A program made the translations under genes and the position numbers. The notes below the pieces were generated by a model. The model did not search any database, was not told the origin of the DNA, and saw only the letters and a program-made list of their open reading frames with translations. A stretch of 64,000 nt of DNA from an uncultured Pseudomonadota bacterium. Lineage in GTDB: Bacteria; Pseudomonadota; Gammaproteobacteria; Steroidobacterales; Steroidobacteraceae. The first letter of the stretch is position 1. Every line of letters starts with the position of its first letter. This document shows, one piece after another, positions 21,948 through 59,759 of the stretch. The DNA lies in assembly GCA_903838705.1 (NCBI GenBank), contig CAILZL010000038.1, positions 62,001 to 126,000 on the forward strand, read 5' to 3'.

Positions 21948-23777
21948 TCAATCGGCACTTTCTTCGGCACGACCCGGACGCTTACGCTCATGTTCCTTCA
22001 GGAAACGCTTGCGAAGACGAATTTCACCTGGTGTAACTTCAACCAACTCATCGTCATCGATGAATTCCATCGCCTGTTCCAGTGAATAACGAATCGGATT
22101 ACTGAGCACCTGATTCTCATCCTTGCCTGCAGCACGCATATTGGTCAGCTTCTTGGCCTTCAATGGGTTTACTACCAGGTCATTGTCACGGCTGTGAATA
22201 CCTACAATCTGGCCTTCGTATACTTCATCGCCGTGACTTACCATCAGGCGACCACGCTCCTGCAGGCTAAACAGCGCATAAGTCAGTGCTTTGCCCTGGC
22301 CGTTGGAAATCATCACACCATTCTGACGCTGCCCGATTTCCTTATCGAGTACAGGGCCGAAGTGATCGAAAATATGATGCAACAGTCCCGTACCTGAGGT
22401 CAGGGTACGGAATTCAGTCTGGAAACCGATCAGACCGCGTGATGGCATCATGTATTCAAGACGCACACGACCTTTGCCATCGGTCTGCATATTGGTCAAC
22501 TGACCACCGCGCTCACCCAGCGCCTGCATGACGGCACCCTGGTTATTTTCATCCAGGTCGATAGCCACTGACTCATATGGTTCAGACATCACGCCGTCTA
22601 TCTCCTTGACCACAGCGCGGGGACGTGACACCGCCAGCTCATACCCTTCGCGGCGCATGTTTTCCAGCAGCACGCCCAGGTGCAATTCACCACGACCGTA
22701 GACGATAAATTTATCGGGGTTGGGCGTATCTTCGACTCGCAACGCCACGTTATGCATCGTTTCACGCAACAGGCGCTCACGAATTTGACGACTGGTCACA
22801 AACTTGCCTTCACGACCGCAGAACGGCGAGGTATTCACTTCGAAAGTCATGCTGATCGTAGGCTCATCCACCACCAGAGCAGGCAATGCCTCAGGCGCAG
22901 CCGGGTCACAAATCGTGTCTGAAATCTTGGGATGCTCAATACCTGCAAAAGCCACGATATCGCCGGCACTGGCTTCATTAACTTCGACACGATCCAGCCC
23001 CATGAAGCCAAGGACCTGAATAATGCGTTCGTTACGGGTTTTGCCATCTGCGCCCACGACCGTTACCGCACCACCACGACGTAGCTGCCCACGCTTGATA
23101 CGACCGATTGCAATGGCACCCACATAGTTGGAGTAGTCCAGCTGACTGATCTGTAATTGCAATGGCCCATCACTGTCCACATCCGGCGGTGGGCAATGCT
23201 CAACGATCGCTTTAAATAACGGTTCCATGTTTTCTTGCAGATTCTTCGGATCAGTACCGGCAATGCCACGCAGAGCGGAGGCATAAACAACAGGGAAATC
23301 CAGCTGCTCTTCTGTGGCGCCCAGGCTATCAAACAAATCGAATGTTTGACCCAGCACCCAATCCGGGCGAGCTTCATCTCGATCAATCTTGTTGACCACT
23401 ACGATCGGGCGCAGACCATGTGAAAAGGCCTTCTGTGTCACGAAACGGGTCTGTGGCATCGGCCCATCAACCGCATCCACCAGCAATAACACGCAATCCA
23501 CCATCGACAAAACACGCTCAACTTCACCACCGAAATCAGCGTGTCCCGGGGTATCCACGATATTGATGCGATATTCACCCCAGTTAATGGCGGTGTTTTT
23601 TGCAAGGATGGTAATGCCTCGCTCTTTTTCCAGATCGTTCGAGTCCATGACGCGCTCGGTCGGCGCCTTGCGAACATCGAGGGTGCCAGATTGCCTCAAC
23701 AACTGGTCAACCAAGGTGGTTTTGCCATGATCGACGTGGGCGATGATGGCGATATTGCGTAACTTGGCAGTGCTCAC
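21948..23777 (-). CDS. typA: Ribosome-associated GTPase TypA/BipA
   Basis: Translational GTPase of the EF-G family that supports 50S assembly and growth under stress. It has 609 residues. The G motifs are [15 protein letters not shown] (switch I), DTPGHADF and [10 protein letters not shown]. Domains II, III and V follow, and a BipA-specific C-terminal domain includes [17 protein letters not shown]. The start is GTG at 23777. A candidate promoter overlaps a terminator hairpin just upstream. Confidence 0.97.
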
Positions 23778-49385: not shown

Positions 49386-51629
<2,244 letters not shown>

Positions 51630-51840: not shown

Positions 51841-52338
51841 ATGACACATCCTCCTTTGAGACGAGCTCTGTTCGGTCTGATTGGCTGGCTCATTGCTTCA
51901 TTCGCCACAGGCGGGGTGGGAGCCTTTGCATCTGTCAGTGCAGCTTCGTTCTATGGCTCGATCATGCAGCCATCATGGGCACCGCCAGCCTGGGTATTCG
52001 GTCCGGTATGGACTGCACTGTATGTATTGATGGGCATCGCAGCCTGGTTGGTCTGGCGAGAACATGGCTTTGGTAAAGCGGGCATCGCACTGAAGTTATA
52101 CATAGCCCAGTTGTTAGCCAATGCTCTGTGGTCCTGGCTGTTCTTTGCCTGGCACCTGGGTGCGATTTCTGTACTGGAGATCATCGTTCTGTGGCTGCTG
52201 ATCGGCAGTACGCTCCTGGTATTCTGGAGGCTGCACAAAGTGGCCGCGCTCATGCTCGTCCCTTACGTTGTATGGGTCAGCTTTGCGGCCGCTTTGAACA
52301 TTGCATTGTGGCGTCTTAACCCAGTCGCGCTGGGTTAG
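51841..52338 (+). CDS. tspO: TspO/MBR-family membrane protein
   Basis: Five-helix porphyrin and cholesterol-type ligand-binding protein of 165 residues. Family marks are the FYGSIMQPSWAPPAWVFGPVWTALY segment (Trp/Pro-rich, helix 1-2 loop), LYIAQLLANALWSWLFF and WVSFAAALNIALWRLN. TspO proteins bind or degrade tetrapyrroles and are tied to oxidative and light stress, so location beside katG is sensible. A weak AAGG ribosome site lies well upstream. Confidence 0.93.
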   Translation: MTHPPLRRALFGLIGWLIASFATGGVGAFASVSAASFYGSIMQPSWAPPAWVFGPVWTALYVLMGIAAWLVWREHGFGKAGIALKLYIAQLLANALWSWLFFAWHLGAISVLEIIVLWLLIGSTLLVFWRLHKVAALMLVPYVVWVSFAAALNIALWRLNPVALG

Positions 52339-52381: not shown

Positions 52382-53644
52382 TCACCTTGCTACTCTGCGC
52401 CCAGCCGTATCTGGTAGCAGAATGGTGAGTACACCTAGCAACGGCAGGTATGCGCAGATTGAATACACGTATTCAATACCGTGCACATCTGCAACCTTAC
52501 CCAGTATCGCCGCACCGATGCCACCCATGCCGAATGCAAAGCCAAAAAACAGCCCGGACACCATCCCCACTTTGCCAGGTAATAACTCCTGAGCAAAGAC
52601 CAGAATAGCTGAGAATGCGGACGCGATGATAAATCCAATGATGAAAGTCAGCGTAATCGTCCAGCGCAACTCCATATGTGGAAGTAGCAACGCAAATGGA
52701 GCAGCGCCGAGGATGGATCCCCAAATGACTCTTCTACGGCCGATACGATCGCCGATCGGGCCACCGAGAATGGTGCCCAACGCCACTGCGAATAGAAATA
52801 CAAACAGTGGGCCCTGCGCGGCCTGAGCTGTCAGATGGAATTTGCTCATCAGGTAAAACGTGTAGTAACTCGTCAGGCTGGTTAGATAGAAGTACTTGGA
52901 GAATATCAGCACCAATAGTACCAATATGGCACCAGCAATTCTTCGGTTTGAGAGTGCAGAATTGGTCTTCTTCTGTGCATGGTGTTTGCGAATATGCAAG
53001 GCTTGTGCGTGTGAATACCAACCGGCAATCCGCACCAGAATCAGCATCGCGAGCAGTGCGGCAATGGAAACCCAACCCACGCCACGCTGTCCGTTAGGGA
53101 TGATTAACCAGGCCGCCAGTACCGGCCCAAATGCGCTGCCGGCATTGCCACCGACTTGAAAGAAGGACTGAGCGAATCCATACCGTCCGCCTGAAGCAAG
53201 GCGGGCCACGCGTGATGCCTCCGGATGAAATATCGAGGACCCGCTGCCTATGAAAGCTGCAGCCAGCAACAGCACGTGGTAATTAGGTGCAAAGGCAAGC
53301 GTGAGCAATCCGATGAAAGTCAGACACATTCCCATCGCGAGTGAATACGCTTGCGGTCGGCGATCCGTATAGATGCCTACCAGCGGTTGCAGCAGCGATG
53401 CGGTGATTTGATAGGTCAGGGTGATCAGGCCAATTTGTGAGAAGCTGAGCGAAAACCCGCCCTTCAGCAGCGGATATATGGCCAGCAATATCGACTGCAT
53501 CAGATCGTTCAGGAAGTGCGAAAAGCTGATGGCGCCAAGGATGCGGTAGCGAACCCGCTCACGTGCGTTAGTTGAGTCGTCTGCACTCAAGACAAGCGGC
53601 TCTAACAGTGGCGATTCAGGTATGGGTGAGGTTTTGGTTTGCAT
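52382..53644 (-). CDS. MFS exporter, fosmidomycin-resistance (Fsr) type
   Basis: Twelve-helix major facilitator of 420 residues. The N-terminal segment RILGAISFSHFLNDLMQSILLAIYPLL, the TYQITASLLQPLVGIYTDRRPQ loop and the GSGSSIFHPEASRVARLASGGRYGFAQSFFQVGGNAGSAFGP region match Fsr. An extended polar C-terminus is absent. Drug specificity should not be assumed. It lies downstream of the LysR gene on the same strand, with a 131-bp gap carrying repeated motifs. Confidence 0.88.
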   Translation of the reverse strand: MQTKTSPIPESPLLEPLVLSADDSTNARERVRYRILGAISFSHFLNDLMQSILLAIYPLLKGGFSLSFSQIGLITLTYQITASLLQPLVGIYTDRRPQAYSLAMGMCLTFIGLLTLAFAPNYHVLLLAAAFIGSGSSIFHPEASRVARLASGGRYGFAQSFFQVGGNAGSAFGPVLAAWLIIPNGQRGVGWVSIAALLAMLILVRIAGWYSHAQALHIRKHHAQKKTNSALSNRRIAGAILVLLVLIFSKYFYLTSLTSYYTFYLMSKFHLTAQAAQGPLFVFLFAVALGTILGGPIGDRIGRRRVIWGSILGAAPFALLLPHMELRWTITLTFIIGFIIASAFSAILVFAQELLPGKVGMVSGLFFGFAFGMGGIGAAILGKVADVHGIEYVYSICAYLPLLGVLTILLPDTAGRRVAR

Positions 53645-53775: not shown

Positions 53776-54684
53776 TCAGCGGGAACGACGCGCCGAAATG
53801 AGCGTCTGAACCAAAGAAGATGGACTGCGACGGAATGCTGTAATTGCATAGAAGTTCTCGAAGACCCCCGGCACTGAACAGTAACGCTGCAACCGACCTT
53901 CGCGCAGCTCATCTTGTACCACGACCTCGGGCAGCACAGTGATCGCATCGGAGTCACGCGCCAATAGCCGCAGCATGGCCATGTCATCTACTTCCGCCAC
54001 GATGTTTATCTGTACGTGATTCTTTTCGCACCACAGGTCGAACTGGCTGCGGATATCACTGCTCGGACCTGGCACTACAAAACGAGCGTTGTCGACATCT
54101 GCTGGTACCCGGAAGCGTCTGCCTCGCGGACGTGGCCTGCCAACCAGGCACACGGATTGCTGATCAATTTGCATGCAGCGCCAGGGTTTTCCTGCTTCAG
54201 TGACAACCGGCCGATTCGATAGCACCACGTCAAGGTTGTGCATCTGCAGACGCCCCAACAACTCATCCAAACTGCCAGACTCGAGCCGCAGGCTCACCAT
54301 GTTCTTGCCCAACAGTGGACGAAGCAAGTTCTCCAGGAAGTTGCGAGAGAGAGTCGCGACCGCACCGACCCGCACTTGTTGGACACGTTGGTTGTCACCG
54401 CCACGCGCCAACGCCATTAACTCCTGCCCCAACCCGAAGATGCTGTCCGCGTAATCGAGCACCGTGGTACCAAACTCGGTAAGTACCAGCGTGCGTCCGG
54501 TCCGGTCGAACAGCGGTCTACCGAGATAGTTCTCCAACTGGCGGATCTGCGCCGACAGTGCTGACTGTGAAACCCGTAAAAGCTGAGCTGCACGCGTCAG
54601 GTGACCGAGCTTGGCAACCTGCCAGAAGTAAAGCAGATGTCGAAAGTTCAAGTTGCGCACGTTCTCTCCAATGGAACAATTCAT
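53776..54684 (-). CDS. LysR-family regulator, NhaR-like
   Basis: The 302-residue activator has an N-terminal winged helix-turn-helix (NFRHLLYFWQVAKLGHLTRAAQLLRVSQSALSAQIRQLE region) whose HLLYFW opening is typical of the NhaR branch. A LysR substrate-binding domain (VRVGAVATLSRNFLENLLRPLL onward) follows. It is transcribed divergently from dabB with start codons 76 bp apart, the classical layout for a LysR regulator and its target. LysR genes also accompany DAB operons elsewhere. The co-inducer is unknown; pH, Na+ or CO2 limitation are plausible. Confidence 0.88.
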   Translation of the reverse strand: MNCSIGENVRNLNFRHLLYFWQVAKLGHLTRAAQLLRVSQSALSAQIRQLENYLGRPLFDRTGRTLVLTEFGTTVLDYADSIFGLGQELMALARGGDNQRVQQVRVGAVATLSRNFLENLLRPLLGKNMVSLRLESGSLDELLGRLQMHNLDVVLSNRPVVTEAGKPWRCMQIDQQSVCLVGRPRPRGRRFRVPADVDNARFVVPGPSSDIRSQFDLWCEKNHVQINIVAEVDDMAMLRLLARDSDAITVLPEVVVQDELREGRLQRYCSVPGVFENFYAITAFRRSPSSLVQTLISARRSR

Positions 54685-54760
54685 TCACATCATTCTATTT
54701 TACGCCAGTCCAGGTCAACCCCATACTGGCGTCCATCTTCAACTGCCATCCCGGTGTCTG

Positions 54761-56335
54761 ATGCAAAGTGTCACAAGTTGGCTTGCCTGGTTGCCATCCG
54801 GTATTTATCTGGCTGCAGCATTGCTCTGCGTTGGCACGACGAGCGAACCGGCTTGGCGCGTTGTTGTTACGTCAACCCGCTTCTCGCTGGTCGCTGCGAT
54901 ATTCAATACCTGCGTCGTGCTGCATGCGGCATGGCATACAACAGACTCTTCAGCGCATCCCGTCCCAGCCATTGTCATGATGTTGGTCGCCTTCCTCGGC
55001 TGGATCATTGGCGACTTCTCTCGCCGTTATTTGCGCGGCGAGGCCGGTCAGCTCCGTTTCATCATCGCGTTTCTGGTGACGCTTGCCGCCATTGCCTCCG
55101 TTATCGCAAGTACTAATCTGGCGCTCATGATCATTGGCTGGGCGGCGAGCAGTGCAGCTCTGCATCATCTGCTGACTTTCTACCGTGATCGTCCCGCAGC
55201 GATTCTCGTAGCACACAAGAAGTTTCTTGCGAGCCGATTGGCAGAGGTGTGTCTCATCGTTGCGTCGATCTTGTTATTTCGTGAATGCGGATCGCTTGAG
55301 CTAACAACCATTGTTGAACGAGCCACATCAATGCAGACCTTGAGCTGGACGCTCAGTGCCGCTGCCATACTCATCTCCTTCGGTGTGCTCATCAAGAGCG
55401 CGCAGCTACCACTGCATGGCTGGCTTATCCAGGTGATGGAGGCGCCCACCCCCGTATCCGCGTTGCTGCATGCCGGAGTGGTAAATCTAGGCGGCTTTGT
55501 GTTGATACAGTTGTCGCCGCTGATCGGCGCGTCCCCGCCTGCCCAGACATTGCTAGTTGTAGTGGGTAGCTTGAGCGCCGCCATAGCAGGACTTGTGATG
55601 CTGACGAGAATCACAATCAAGGTACGTCTCGCCTGGTCGACGTGCTCACAGATGGGATTGATGGTGATGGAGTGCGGCCTGGGCCTCTACGATCTGGCGC
55701 TTCTGCACCTTGTAGCGCATGGCCTGTACAAGGCAAATGCGTTTCTCACTTCCGGAGAAGTGGTGCGCAACAGTATTGAGCGCGAGATCGTCACCGGTAG
55801 CCAGCATGCAGTGATAACTGCGCCGTTCGTAGCTGCGGCGCTCGCACTCCCCATCACGGCGCTCATCACGCTTGCATCCGCAGCAGTGTGGCACAGGGTG
55901 TTCGATGTGCCAGCGCTGCCCTTCATCAGTATCACAATCCTGTCGTGTGGACTTGCCACCCTGGTGTGGGCATCCTTTGCCGGCCGTCGAGTTGATGCCA
56001 TGGCGATCGCGATGGTGTTCGGCGCGGTACAACTTTATCTGGGCTGGCACTGGCTATTCTCTGCGACTCTGCATATCAGCGCCTTGCCTACCTCCTCCCT
56101 GGCCCTTGCTGTGTGGTCATGCCTGATCTTCGTTGGCCTTTACTTCATGCAGGCCTGGGCGGTCACAGCAACATCAACCCTCTCCCGCAGTCGTCTGTAT
56201 GACTGGATTTATGCCGGTCTTTATCTCGATGAACTTTTTACACGACTGACTTTCCGTCTCTGGCCACCAAATGTCGCGTCCTATTCCACTGAATTGACGA
56301 ACCAGAACATCGCACGTAACCGGAGTCCATCCTAA
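54761..56335 (+). CDS. dabB: DAB inorganic-carbon accumulation subunit DabB (NuoL-like)
   Basis: Membrane subunit of the DAB complex, related to NuoL/Mrp antiporter proteins. It couples a cation gradient to CO2 hydration by DabA. The ATG at 54761 starts a hydrophobic helix (WLAWLPSGIYLAAALLCVG); the frame open from 54653 overlaps the LysR start. About 14 helices are predicted in 524 residues. The proton-antiporter core motif (LPLHGWLIQVMEAPTPVSALLHAGVVNLGG region) is intact. It lacks the long lateral C-terminal helix of true NuoL. Its stop overlaps the dabA start (TAATG). Confidence 0.93.
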   Translation: MQSVTSWLAWLPSGIYLAAALLCVGTTSEPAWRVVVTSTRFSLVAAIFNTCVVLHAAWHTTDSSAHPVPAIVMMLVAFLGWIIGDFSRRYLRGEAGQLRFIIAFLVTLAAIASVIASTNLALMIIGWAASSAALHHLLTFYRDRPAAILVAHKKFLASRLAEVCLIVASILLFRECGSLELTTIVERATSMQTLSWTLSAAAILISFGVLIKSAQLPLHGWLIQVMEAPTPVSALLHAGVVNLGGFVLIQLSPLIGASPPAQTLLVVVGSLSAAIAGLVMLTRITIKVRLAWSTCSQMGLMVMECGLGLYDLALLHLVAHGLYKANAFLTSGEVVRNSIEREIVTGSQHAVITAPFVAAALALPITALITLASAAVWHRVFDVPALPFISITILSCGLATLVWASFAGRRVDAMAIAMVFGAVQLYLGWHWLFSATLHISALPTSSLALAVWSCLIFVGLYFMQAWAVTATSTLSRSRLYDWIYAGLYLDELFTRLTFRLWPPNVASYSTELTNQNIARNRSPS

Positions 56336-58812
56336 TGAACAATGCCTTGCTCCATACACCCATTGAGCCCGATGAGTTCAATGCAGCCATTGAAGCTGCT
56401 TGCCGTGTGATTGCACCCAGTTGGCCACTAGATCGACAGATTGCTGTCAACCCTTATTGGGGATTCATAGCACAACCTTTTGCGCAGACCGCTGCCAGCG
56501 TGCGCCGCCTTGTCGGGGGACGGATTGCTTTACCTACGGATGTCTACCTTGCTGCGTGGCGTTCCGGCGAGATCACACCATCCGCACTACATCGCGCGTT
56601 GGCCGAGACTTCGGCTGCTGTCACGCCAGACGACGCCGTCGCGGCGTTGCAACGTCAGCAGGACACTACGAGAGGATTGCCGCTGTTATCGGATGTCATT
56701 GATGAGCACTCGCCATCAAAAGCTGGCCCGCGCTGGCAGGACACGATCACCCAGCAGGTCAGTCAGTATTGCGCATCGTATTTCGATTCGCATCAGGCCG
56801 AGTGGCATCGCAACCGGACTGCCGGACTGTACGCAGGATGGCGCGCGGCTTTGCTAGTTGATCATGCAGTGAAGCCATTGATGCAAGCCCCGCAGATCAG
56901 CACGCGCGCACGCGAACTTCCACATTCCCCTGAGGCAGCGATAACGTGGGCGCTGCAGCGTCTTGAAGTACCGTTGCAAGAGGCAACGGAATTCCTGCAA
57001 GTGTGCTTGCTACGCATCAATGGTTGGGCGTCGTGGTGCGCCTATCTTGGCTGGCAAGCCAGCCTTGAAGGCACTAAGGATTCTCACCTGCGTGAATTGT
57101 TGGCGATCCGCGCCTGTTGGGAAGCGTTACTTCATGATGGACAGCAGACGGTCGGATCTCATATAGCTCAGTGGCGCGAGCACTGGTCGCTCGCACGACG
57201 CACACCAGCAAGCGCTGGCGATGCATGCGAGCTCATCTGGCAGCGGGCGCAAGAGATCAGCTACCAGGACCAGCTCATTGCATTGTTACATGGGGCGCAA
57301 TCTCAAGCGGTGGTTACACCAGCTGCATCGCGTCCCGGCGCACAACTCATCTTCTGCATTGATGTGCGATCCGAACGCTTTCGGCGTGCACTTGAAGCGA
57401 CTGACTCGAATCTTGAAACCAAGGGATTTGCTGGCTTCTTCGGTCTGCCCATTCAGCGCCGGCTGATCGGTACGCAGCTATTGCGCCCACAACTGCCGGG
57501 ATTGCTCGGTGCATCACTCGAAGTCAACGAATCGACCGGTCAGCCCGCAACAGATGCGCTGATCGCGGCCCGACGCAACAGCCAGCTGCAAGCCATCGGA
57601 CAGCGGCAGTCATTCCATCGATTACCGACTGGCGCGTTCTCACTCGTGGAGACCATAGGCCTAGGCTACGCCGCTGCCATCTTGCGTCGCCATTTTGGCA
57701 GCCCGGTCGCACCGCCCGAGTCCTTTGCGCTGACACAGCCTGATGCCCGGGCGTTGCGTCCACAACTTACCGTCATTGGCCCAGACGCAATCGGCCGCAA
57801 GGCCGATCTTGTTGCCTCCATCCTGCGTGCGATGAGCCTTACCTCGGGCTTCGCACGCTTGCTGGTACTGGTCGGGCATGGCTCTCAAAGCGCCAACAAT
57901 CCCCAGGCCGCAGCGCTTGACTGCGGTGCGTGCGGTGGACAGACCGGAGAGGTCAACGCTCGCGTACTTGCCGGTCTGTTGAATGATTCGGCCATTCGTG
58001 CCGCACTGCATGCACGCGGCATCGCAATCCCTGCAGACACTGTGGCGATTGGTGCACTACACAACACCACCACCGATGAATTGTCATTGCTGGATATCGA
58101 CCTTTGCCCCGCGACTCATGCGCGGGATATTCAAAGCCTGCAAGTAAGCCTGCAAACGGCGGGACATCGAACACGCGTCGAACGCGCGCCGGATCTCGGC
58201 TTGCGCGAATACATGTCTTCGCCCAAAACCCTGCTCAAGCGTCTGCGAGCACGCGCATGCGATTGGGCTGAAACCCGTCCTGAGTGGGGGCTGGCGAACA
58301 ATGCCGCCCTCATCATCGCTCCGCGAGCTCGAACGCGTGGTCTCGATTTGGCTGGCCGTAGCTTCTTGCATGACTATGTTGCAGCCGACGATCCCGATGG
58401 CAAGGTGCTGGAACTCATCATGACTGCGCCGATGATCGTCACGCACTGGATCAATCTGCAGTACTACGCTTCGACGGTGGACCCCGAACGCTTCGGTAGT
58501 GGCAACAAAGTACTGCATAACGTCGCTTGCGGAATGATCGGCGTGTTCGAGGGCAACACCGGCGATCTGCGCATCGGGTTGGCACGCCAGTCGCTGCATG
58601 ATGGAAAGCGCTGGATGCACACGCCATTACGCCAGTCGGTAGTCATCGACGCACCACGCGACCGGATTGAAGCAATTCTGGCGCGCCATGAGACGGTCCG
58701 CCAACTGGTCGCGAATCAATGGCTGTATCTGTTCCGCTTCGCCGCGAGTGGTATCGAGTGGCATTGTGATGGACAGTGGCGCGCGTGGACCGCAGGAGGG
58801 CAAGCATCATGA
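56335..58812 (+). CDS. dabA: DAB inorganic-carbon accumulation subunit DabA (DUF2309)
   Basis: Zinc-dependent beta-carbonic-anhydrase-like subunit of 825 residues that converts CO2 to bicarbonate vectorially at the membrane. Candidate zinc ligands and active-site residues are all present: Cys341 and Asp343 in FCIDVRSERFRRALE, His515 in VGHGSQSANNP and Cys530 in LDCGACGG. The opening AACRVIAPSWPLDRQIAVNPYWG and HDYVAADDPDGKVLELIMTAPM near the end are family-typical. It is translationally coupled to dabB and to the following cysD. In heterotrophs DAB supports growth at low CO2. Confidence 0.95.
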   Translation: MNNALLHTPIEPDEFNAAIEAACRVIAPSWPLDRQIAVNPYWGFIAQPFAQTAASVRRLVGGRIALPTDVYLAAWRSGEITPSALHRALAETSAAVTPDDAVAALQRQQDTTRGLPLLSDVIDEHSPSKAGPRWQDTITQQVSQYCASYFDSHQAEWHRNRTAGLYAGWRAALLVDHAVKPLMQAPQISTRARELPHSPEAAITWALQRLEVPLQEATEFLQVCLLRINGWASWCAYLGWQASLEGTKDSHLRELLAIRACWEALLHDGQQTVGSHIAQWREHWSLARRTPASAGDACELIWQRAQEISYQDQLIALLHGAQSQAVVTPAASRPGAQLIFCIDVRSERFRRALEATDSNLETKGFAGFFGLPIQRRLIGTQLLRPQLPGLLGASLEVNESTGQPATDALIAARRNSQLQAIGQRQSFHRLPTGAFSLVETIGLGYAAAILRRHFGSPVAPPESFALTQPDARALRPQLTVIGPDAIGRKADLVASILRAMSLTSGFARLLVLVGHGSQSANNPQAAALDCGACGGQTGEVNARVLAGLLNDSAIRAALHARGIAIPADTVAIGALHNTTTDELSLLDIDLCPATHARDIQSLQVSLQTAGHRTRVERAPDLGLREYMSSPKTLLKRLRARACDWAETRPEWGLANNAALIIAPRARTRGLDLAGRSFLHDYVAADDPDGKVLELIMTAPMIVTHWINLQYYASTVDPERFGSGNKVLHNVACGMIGVFEGNTGDLRIGLARQSLHDGKRWMHTPLRQSVVIDAPRDRIEAILARHETVRQLVANQWLYLFRFAASGIEWHCDGQWRAWTAGGQAS

Positions 58813-59759
58813 GTACACAACTACCTCATCTTCTTTCACAAAACACACGCAGCATGGAACTGATGATGTCGCATCTCGATCATCTCGAGGCTGAGGCGAT
58901 ACACATTCTGCGCGAAGCGGTCGCGGAATCAGAAAACCCTGTGCTGCTGTTCTCGGCTGGTAAAGACTCAACCGTGCTGGCACATCTCGTCATGCGGGCC
59001 TTCTATCCCTCACCGCCGCCGATGCCGTTATTGCATATCGACTCGACCTGGGAATTTCAGTCGTTGCTCGACTTTCGTGACCGGTTCGCAAGCCAGTATG
59101 GGTTCCGGCTCATCGTCAGAGCCAATGAAGCCGGGCGTGCTTCCGGCATCAACCCCTTCGATCATGGCGACCGCTACACCACCATCATGCGCACTGAGCC
59201 ACTAAAGGCAGCACTTGATGAGGGGCGATTCGATGTCATTATCGGCGGCGCCCGTCGCGACGAAGAACGATCCCGCGCGAAAGAACGGATCGTGTCGATT
59301 CGTGGTACGAATCACACTTGGGATCCGCGCAACCAGCGCCCTGAACTTTGGAACCTCTACAATCTGAAGCTGAATAAAGGCGAGACAGCAAGAGTCTTCC
59401 CGATCTCCAACTGGACTGAACTCGATGTTCTCAGCTACGCACTCGTCCGCAACATCGAATTGGCGCCGCTGTACTTCGCACAGCAACGTCCCACCGTGGA
59501 ACGAGATGGCACGCTGATCGTCGTGGATGAAGCCGAACGGATGCGGCTTCGCAAGTCGGAGTCGGTGGTCGAACGATCCGTGCGCTTTCGCACGCTGGGT
59601 TGCTGGCCGGTGACTGGCGCCATCGAATCTGATGCCACGGATGTCGCGGGCGTGCTGGTGGAGACCTTGAGCTCCGCACGCTCCGAGCGACAGGGCCGAA
59701 TCGGCGACCAGGAAGCAGGTGGATCGCTTGAGCAGCAGAAGCGCGAGGGTTACTTCTGA
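58809..59759 (+). CDS. cysD: CysD-like sulfate adenylyltransferase subunit 2, without CysN
   Basis: PP-loop ATP pyrophosphatase of 316 residues. SAGKDST at 49-55 is the PP-loop. GGARRDEERSRAKERI, HTWDPRNQRPELW, VFPISNWTELDV, FRTLGCWPVTGA and the C-terminal EQQKREGYF are CysD hallmarks. In the usual enzyme CysD adenylylates sulfate with help of the GTPase CysN. No cysN, cysC, cysH or cysIJ is present here. The ATG overlaps the dabA stop (ATGA), so it is part of the dab operon. The position reading HVDTGWKF in E. coli CysD reads HIDSTWEF here, a change worth noting. Confidence 0.9.
   Translation: MSTQLPHLLSQNTRSMELMMSHLDHLEAEAIHILREAVAESENPVLLFSAGKDSTVLAHLVMRAFYPSPPPMPLLHIDSTWEFQSLLDFRDRFASQYGFRLIVRANEAGRASGINPFDHGDRYTTIMRTEPLKAALDEGRFDVIIGGARRDEERSRAKERIVSIRGTNHTWDPRNQRPELWNLYNLKLNKGETARVFPISNWTELDVLSYALVRNIELAPLYFAQQRPTVERDGTLIVVDEAERMRLRKSESVVERSVRFRTLGCWPVTGAIESDATDVAGVLVETLSSARSERQGRIGDQEAGGSLEQQKREGYF

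Follow-up and report, generated by a model that had tools for sequence, protein, structure and literature searches.

Why would a subunit of ATP sulfurylase be encoded as the third gene of a bicarbonate pump operon? The question is raised by a 64,000-nucleotide stretch of contig CAILZL010000038.1 (assembly GCA_903838705.1) from an uncultured bacterium of the Steroidobacteraceae, referred to here as the window. The window contains a DAB bicarbonate-supply operon, dabB-dabA-cysD, in which the third gene encodes a CysD that belongs to a distinct clade; there is no CysN gene next to it. The clade keeps the PP-loop, with fixed changes in its vicinity, and is found repeatedly in many unrelated bacteria, mostly next to bicarbonate transporters (DabAB and, twice, SbtA). 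Judged from sequence, a CysD with its own signature residues in bicarbonate-pump operons may have an unrecognised role in CO2 supply, rather than in ordinary sulfur assimilation.

The three genes lie on the plus strand: dabB (54761..56335), encoding the membrane subunit; dabA (56335..58812), encoding the zinc-binding, beta-carbonic-anhydrase-like subunit; and cysD (58809..59759), encoding a CysD paralogue of 316 residues. A preliminary description of the locus had reported stop-to-start overlaps at both junctions, and both are borne out: dabB ends and dabA starts at 56335 (TAATG), and cysD starts at 58809, within the end of dabA at 58812 (ATGA). This layout suggests that the three genes are co-expressed. 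The gene identities given there hold as well. DabB matches PF00361 with 150.8 bits and NF006029 with 514.7 bits, and DabA matches PF10070 over its full length (852 bits, profile positions 1–747). DabA carries the motif CIDVR at 341 and the zinc-site residues C341-x-D343-x-R345 and H515-x14-C530, spaced as are C351/D353/R355/H524/C539 in the DabA2 site described in the DAB2 paper (PMC13144422). Both patterns occur in 60 of 61 DabAs from cysD-bearing loci, the H-x14-C pattern being loose enough to match elsewhere too. CysD scores 157.3 bits with PF01507 and 419.4 bits with TIGR02039, above the cut-off of 396.6. It is an orphan, as the preliminary description had claimed: no cysN lies downstream, and tblastn found only one distant CysN-like match in the window (26% identity, 23088–23735).

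Uniqueness of the arrangement to the window’s genome is ruled out; it recurs in other genera, so it is more than a chance juxtaposition. A genome scan with dab-linked CysD queries yielded 155 confirmed hits, and the top 80 were taken. One of these (L132; L numbers denote loci and G numbers genomes) groups with canonical CysDs and was dropped, and the other 79, together with three plasmids, form a set of 82 loci. DabA ends no more than 350 bases upstream of CysD in 55 of the 82, is otherwise near in 10 and is absent from the stretch in 17; the loci having been picked for their resemblance to four dab-linked CysDs, 55/82 should not be read as a population rate. In 45 loci the cysD start could overlap the dabA stop, and the window CysD is 60–81% identical to its relatives. 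On plasmids, the three top CysD matches among 355 records are all dab-linked; those of Mesorhizobium sp. INR15 and M. terrae read dabB-dabA-cysD-DUF6671, and that of Methylocystis rosea reads dabB-dabA-bioD-ccrA-cysD-bioA. No CysN was found in the flanks examined, up to 10 kb, at any of the 82 loci.

For neighbour statistics, near-copies were removed, reducing the set from 82 to 73 loci, and 21 canonical CysD loci served for comparison. Within 5 kb, DabA is enriched (57/73 dab-type versus 0/21 canonical loci) and CysN is present at 0/73 versus 21/21. At least one of the listed CO2 or bicarbonate genes lies within the same distance at 66/73 dab-type loci, against 2/21 canonical ones. Canonical CysD lies beside CysN in 29/30, 21/21 and 30/30 cases in three sets, the first two of which overlap in genomes.

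Is cysD then a regular part of DAB operons? We examined 36 other DabA loci, comprising the 29 best-scoring from the window’s class (DabA in 83/369 genomes) and seven from its family or order, and a further 30 best-scoring loci from the class of G834 (DabA in 42/337 genomes). Three of the 36 had fewer than 500 bases after DabA. CysD was found in the stretch examined at none of these loci, and so at 0 of the 63 with enough room; they were best-scoring loci rather than a random draw. A general DAB architecture is thereby ruled out, and dab-cysD is a rare variant among DabA loci. In a FastTree phylogeny of DabA, from which seven short rows and eight duplicates were left out, the cysD-bearing loci are clustered (9 changes versus a shuffled mean of 28.7) but do not form a single clade, indicating several gains or losses of cysD next to DabA. 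Pairwise distances in 22 genomes correlate between dab-type CysD and DabA with rho 0.63, compared with 0.30 between dab-type and canonical CysD and 0.21 between canonical CysD and DabA.

Some of these operons appear mobile. In L069 the operon adjoins conjugation genes of the TrbI, CagX, TrbL and TrbE/TraG types (Pfam), and the dab-cysD-DUF6671 operon occurs together with homologues of this block in seven more loci (L057, L058, L062, L065, L066, L072 and L073). The CysDs of L065, a Sphingomonas metagenome-assembled genome (MAG), and L066, a Bradyrhizobium, are identical. The shared block and the identical CysDs suggest that the operon is cargo of an integrative conjugative element.

The dab-type CysDs also differ from canonical CysDs in sequence. 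In an unrooted tree, 53 dab-type CysDs and 40 others (some of the latter from plasmids of other groups) are split by a single branch, with support of 100/99 and presence in 100% of 200 bootstrap trees; near-copies had been removed beforehand (78 to 52). In an earlier tree, L075, L094, L124 and the canonical L152 were omitted for a stop in the stretch, and L131 because it was short. The window CysD thus falls outside the sampled canonical lineage, the outcome on which the preliminary description had staked its reading. The separate branch and the absence of CysN from all 73 loci rule out a recent loss of a neighbouring cysN. The window CysD has F48, T55, A58, E82, R128, W266 and V268. Among 75 distinct clade rows, T55, E82, R128, W266, V268 and L307 (window numbering) are invariant and F48 and A58 nearly so; 78 of 79 rows retain the PP-loop S[AG]GKDST. 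The 40 other CysDs have K82 in 37 cases, E82 in L132 and L171 and N82 in L170, and at position 55 they carry S, A, G, M, I or N, except for L132, which has T. The 30 best-scoring CysDs of 262 CysD-bearing genomes all have K82, S or A at position 55 and a neighbouring CysN. A divergent clade member, L126, scores 380.2 bits with TIGR02039, under the cut-off. With the equivalog NF009214, the window, L014 and L105 score above the cut-off and L126 below it; canonical CysDs outscore dab-type ones, and this model was rejected as a clade marker.

The window’s genome also carries a canonical cysD, immediately upstream of cysNC and among apparent polysaccharide-synthesis genes, and has a CysH elsewhere (identified by eye, the PF01507 matches apart). 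This is the usual situation: among the 39 host genomes searched (that of L066 is one more, outside the search), 37 have CysN above cut-off and 35, counted from rows, also have a full-length canonical CysD. The window’s genome gave one beta-carbonic anhydrase match and no match for RuBisCO, so the pump probably feeds biosynthetic carboxylations in a heterotroph. The staphylococcal MpsAB is a relative of DAB. MpsAB of Staphylococcus aureus is crucial for growth of this heterotroph at atmospheric CO2 (PMC6689103).

The transporter beside cysD can be exchanged. At L086 and L105, both proteobacterial and sisters in the earlier CysD tree, SbtA, a sodium-bicarbonate transporter family unrelated to DabAB, lies directly upstream of cysD and no dab genes are present; the L105 SbtA scores 335.7 bits with PF05982 and that of L086 is 74% identical to it. 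In L087, L099, L108 and L109 a TsaC/Sua5 gene stands between dabA and cysD (identified with profile models for L108 and L099). Crotonyl-CoA carboxylase/reductase (TIGR01751, 599 bits in L059), BioD, isocitrate dehydrogenase or dihydroorotase lies near CysD in Methylocystis-type and other loci. Separately, in three Phenylobacterium-type loci (L114, L120 and L122), CysD comes immediately after a bacterial isocitrate dehydrogenase (NF006673, L114) with no DabA near.

Similar contexts are found among CysDs that group with the canonical ones. L132 has a CysD without CysN in the row SulP, phosphoenolpyruvate carboxylase (PEPC), TsaC, CysD and BioD, and at L183 and L184 a dab operon adjoins CysD and DUF6671; a TsaC gene is close by, and the 5 kb around CysD contain no CysN. 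The tree that placed these three loci left out L170 and L171. All three CysDs have T55 and E82 despite their canonical-side placement, which looks like parallel change.

A second companion is DUF6671 (PF20376), found within 5 kb of CysD at 35/73 dab-type and 0/21 canonical loci, again an enrichment. It has no match in the window’s genome, and no open-access paper that names it was found, most of the subscription literature lying outside the scope of that search. In an even draw of the phylum, it scores above cut-off in 7 of 398 genomes. Two of the seven stretches are dabBA-DUF6671 without CysD (L180 and L185), two are L183 and L184, with CysD beside dab, and one is an SbtA-DUF6671 pair (L181); at L182 and L186, tblastn found no DabA, SbtA or CysD. 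A structural model built from 31 sequences (mean predicted local distance difference test score 92.4) resembles YjjX, HcgB and ITPase/Maf types. Against 1u14 it gives a VIA Z of 12.2 and a root-mean-square deviation of 3.3 over 136 aligned residues (Foldseek E 9.8e-5), and the predicted fold is ITPase/Maf-like. The C-terminal part contains eight invariant cysteines, which probably bind zinc. DUF6671 also adjoins dihydroorotase in L057 (1264–2148), L059, L067 and L126 (TIGR00856, L126), some of these copies lying away from any CysD; dihydroorotase is within 5 kb of CysD at 5/73 loci.

What might this CysD do? The preliminary description had offered adenylylation of another anion, supply of a nucleotide signal, or adjustment of sulfate assimilation to carbon status, and the evidence leans towards the other anion. 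PP-loop enzymes commonly adenylylate an oxygen, releasing pyrophosphate (PPi). In the explanation we favour, the operon would serve a heterotroph short of CO2 by raising bicarbonate for carboxylation and carbamoylation. CysD would have left sulfate assimilation, its PP-loop chemistry (ATP to AMP and PPi) now activating bicarbonate or a carbamate derived from it, by analogy with TsaC adenylylating N-carboxythreonine. The changes to T55 and E82 would adjust the pocket, and the absence of CysN would remove the GTPase drive on which sulfate activation depends. DUF6671, present at about half of the loci though not in the window’s genome, would have the nucleotide product, or a by-product, as its substrate. 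A need for bicarbonate is documented for the human N6-threonylcarbamoyladenosine pathway, with a Km of 31 mM, and 13 mM for the threonylcarbamoyl-AMP step (PMC5951830). That dab-type CysD spends ATP to activate bicarbonate or a carbamate is, in our view, possible rather than probable. A broader version, that CysN-free CysDs form a bicarbonate-activating PP-loop branch, several CysD lineages having separately entered bicarbonate uptake or use operons with the same T55/E82, while DUF6671 clears or converts the nucleotide or the one-carbon unit is used, seems to us rather doubtful.

Several points weigh against bicarbonate activation. A carboxy-adenylate would be very short-lived. E82 is not exclusive to these contexts, as L171 has it beside an annotated cysC long enough to be CysNC, and L170 carries N82. 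In two MAGs, G441 and G444, the dab-type protein is the sole full-length CysD, with no CysN; a Sat-type sulfurylase was not seen in these two or in two other genomes tested. The dab-type CysD could be the sulfurylase of these organisms, or the MAGs could be incomplete. Seven of the 73 loci have no listed CO2 or bicarbonate gene within 5 kb, and these neighbour families were selected after the loci had been inspected. Singly, TsaC, BioD, BioA, PccB, crotonyl-CoA carboxylase/reductase, PyrC, isocitrate dehydrogenase, SbtA, PEPC and SulP are not significantly enriched (p 0.21–1), and PccB-like genes are commoner at canonical loci (2/21 versus 2/73); single CO2-enzyme neighbours were dropped as statistical evidence. 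Finally, L132 was fetched with KDSTVLAH/LLHIDSTW as peptide patterns, and the HIDSTW it contains therefore carries no independent weight.

The main rival is a specialised sulfurylase isoform, which would make adenosine 5'-phosphosulfate with the housekeeping CysN and be adapted to a bicarbonate-rich cytosol, for example by being less inhibited by bicarbonate; such an adaptation would explain co-expression with the pump. The TIGR02039 score above cut-off agrees with it, as do the retained PP-loop, the retention of most residues invariant in a small CysD alignment, and the presence of CysN and canonical CysD in most hosts. However, there is no evident reason to duplicate the catalytic subunit alone, no CysN was seen at any of the 73 dab-type loci or in G441 and G444, and K82, kept by nearly all other CysDs, is lost. 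No report that bicarbonate inhibits ATP sulfurylase turned up among the titles and abstract openings examined. We consider such an isoform possible but doubtful.

Alternatively, CysD could be a regulatory subunit that binds ATP or AMP, gates the bicarbonate transporter and stops the pump when energy is low, much as SbtB, a nucleotide-binding protein, regulates cyanobacterial SbtA. The replacement of DabAB by SbtA while cysD stays (L086 and L105), the overlap with dabA that is possible in many loci and the tracking of DabA distances by those of dab-type CysD would all fit. Yet the PP-loop is conserved beyond what a sensor may need, and 14/73 loci have neither DabA nor SbtA within 5 kb. This role is unlikely.

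Less likely again, and improbable in our view, is extra sulfur activation at low CO2, in which induced carboxylases would raise the demand for biotin and cysteine and CysD would perform ordinary sulfate chemistry. BioD and BioA near CysD in Methylocystis loci, BioD in L132 and an annotated cysteine desulfurase-like gene about 7.5 kb from cysD in L016 point this way, but the missing CysN, the loss of K82 and the lone catalytic subunit tell against it as they do against the isoform. In a word search, cysteine, sulfur and sulfate were absent from the main text of a paper on the S. aureus response to low bicarbonate. That cysD is a hitch-hiker on a mobile dab cassette with no functional link, as the conjugation block and the identical CysDs of L065 and L066 might suggest, is very improbable given its persistence at 60–81% identity with often overlapping frames and fixed residues, and the similar placement of CysN-less CysDs from the canonical side.

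Upstream of the operon lies a divergent LysR-type regulator gene (53776..54684, minus strand; PF00126 and PF03466). The dabB frame is open from 54653, and its likely start, the ATG at 54761, is 76 bases from the LysR start. NhaR is the top NCBIfam match but fails the membership cut-off (NF008284, 146.2 bits versus 219), so the label “NhaR-like” in the preliminary description is fair. A divergent LysR homologue precedes dabB in most related loci whose stretch extends that far. Between lysR and dabB is a perfect inverted repeat, ACGCCAGT-N15-ACTGGCGT (54702..54732), equalled by 0 of 60 shuffles and a possible operator. Several relatives (L054, L060, L079, L082, L102 and L128) have another type directly before lysR, ATCGTTCT-N7-AGAACGAT, a candidate LysR operator; it differs from the window repeat, and a single operator common to all was rejected. 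Most loci have no repeat that clearly beats shuffles. A protein of about 80 residues encoded downstream in many relatives has no Pfam match and finds no convincing counterpart in the window (best E 0.063 over 20 residues). Next to the operon, the window encodes a peroxidase that resembles the catalase-peroxidase KatG (49416–51629, PF00141), a TspO/MBR protein (51841–52338, PF03073) and an MFS transporter (52382–53644, PF07690).

These findings bear on annotation. Databases label dab-type CysDs as sulfate adenylyltransferase, and NF009214 covers canonical and most tested dab-type CysDs alike, so many genomes may carry a wrong label for an enzyme tied to CO2 supply. Should CysD handle bicarbonate, it would represent a new route for inorganic carbon use; if it regulates, it would be a DAB-pump regulator of a kind not found described in our searches. 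Either way, it opens a direct way to study how heterotrophs manage with the CO2 level of air. The preliminary description had considered CysD an undescribed DAB partner, in keeping with our finding no open-access paper that joins DabA/DabB, DUF2309 or SbtA to CysD or ATP sulfurylase, in a search whose scope excluded most subscription literature.

How does dab-cysD compare with known systems? It shares with the DAB complex a DabA with PF10070 and the zinc-site pattern, a DabB with PF00361 and the gene order dabB-dabA, but adds CysD in an overlapping operon, as none of the 63 other DabA loci does. The passages of the DAB2 paper that were consulted mention a small membrane protein encoded at the DAB1 locus and no CysD (PMC13144422). 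With CysDN the dab-cysD operon shares a CysD whose homology to 1zun_A runs from residue 19 through to the C terminus (phmmer, 366 bits), TIGR02039 membership and the PP-loop SAGKDS; it differs in the missing adjacent CysN, the separate clade, T55, E82 and the other changes, and the bicarbonate-operon context. Cyanobacterial SbtA-SbtB likewise pairs a bicarbonate transporter with a nucleotide-binding companion, but SbtB is PII-like whereas CysD is a PP-loop enzyme, and DabAB is the usual transporter here. TsaC/Sua5, which adenylylates a bicarbonate-derived carbamate (PMC5951830), shares operons with some dab-type CysDs and has chemistry like that proposed for them, yet belongs to an unrelated family (PF01300), and for CysD this function is a proposal. 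The dab-cysD operon joins two known kinds, the DAB operon and the CysD family.

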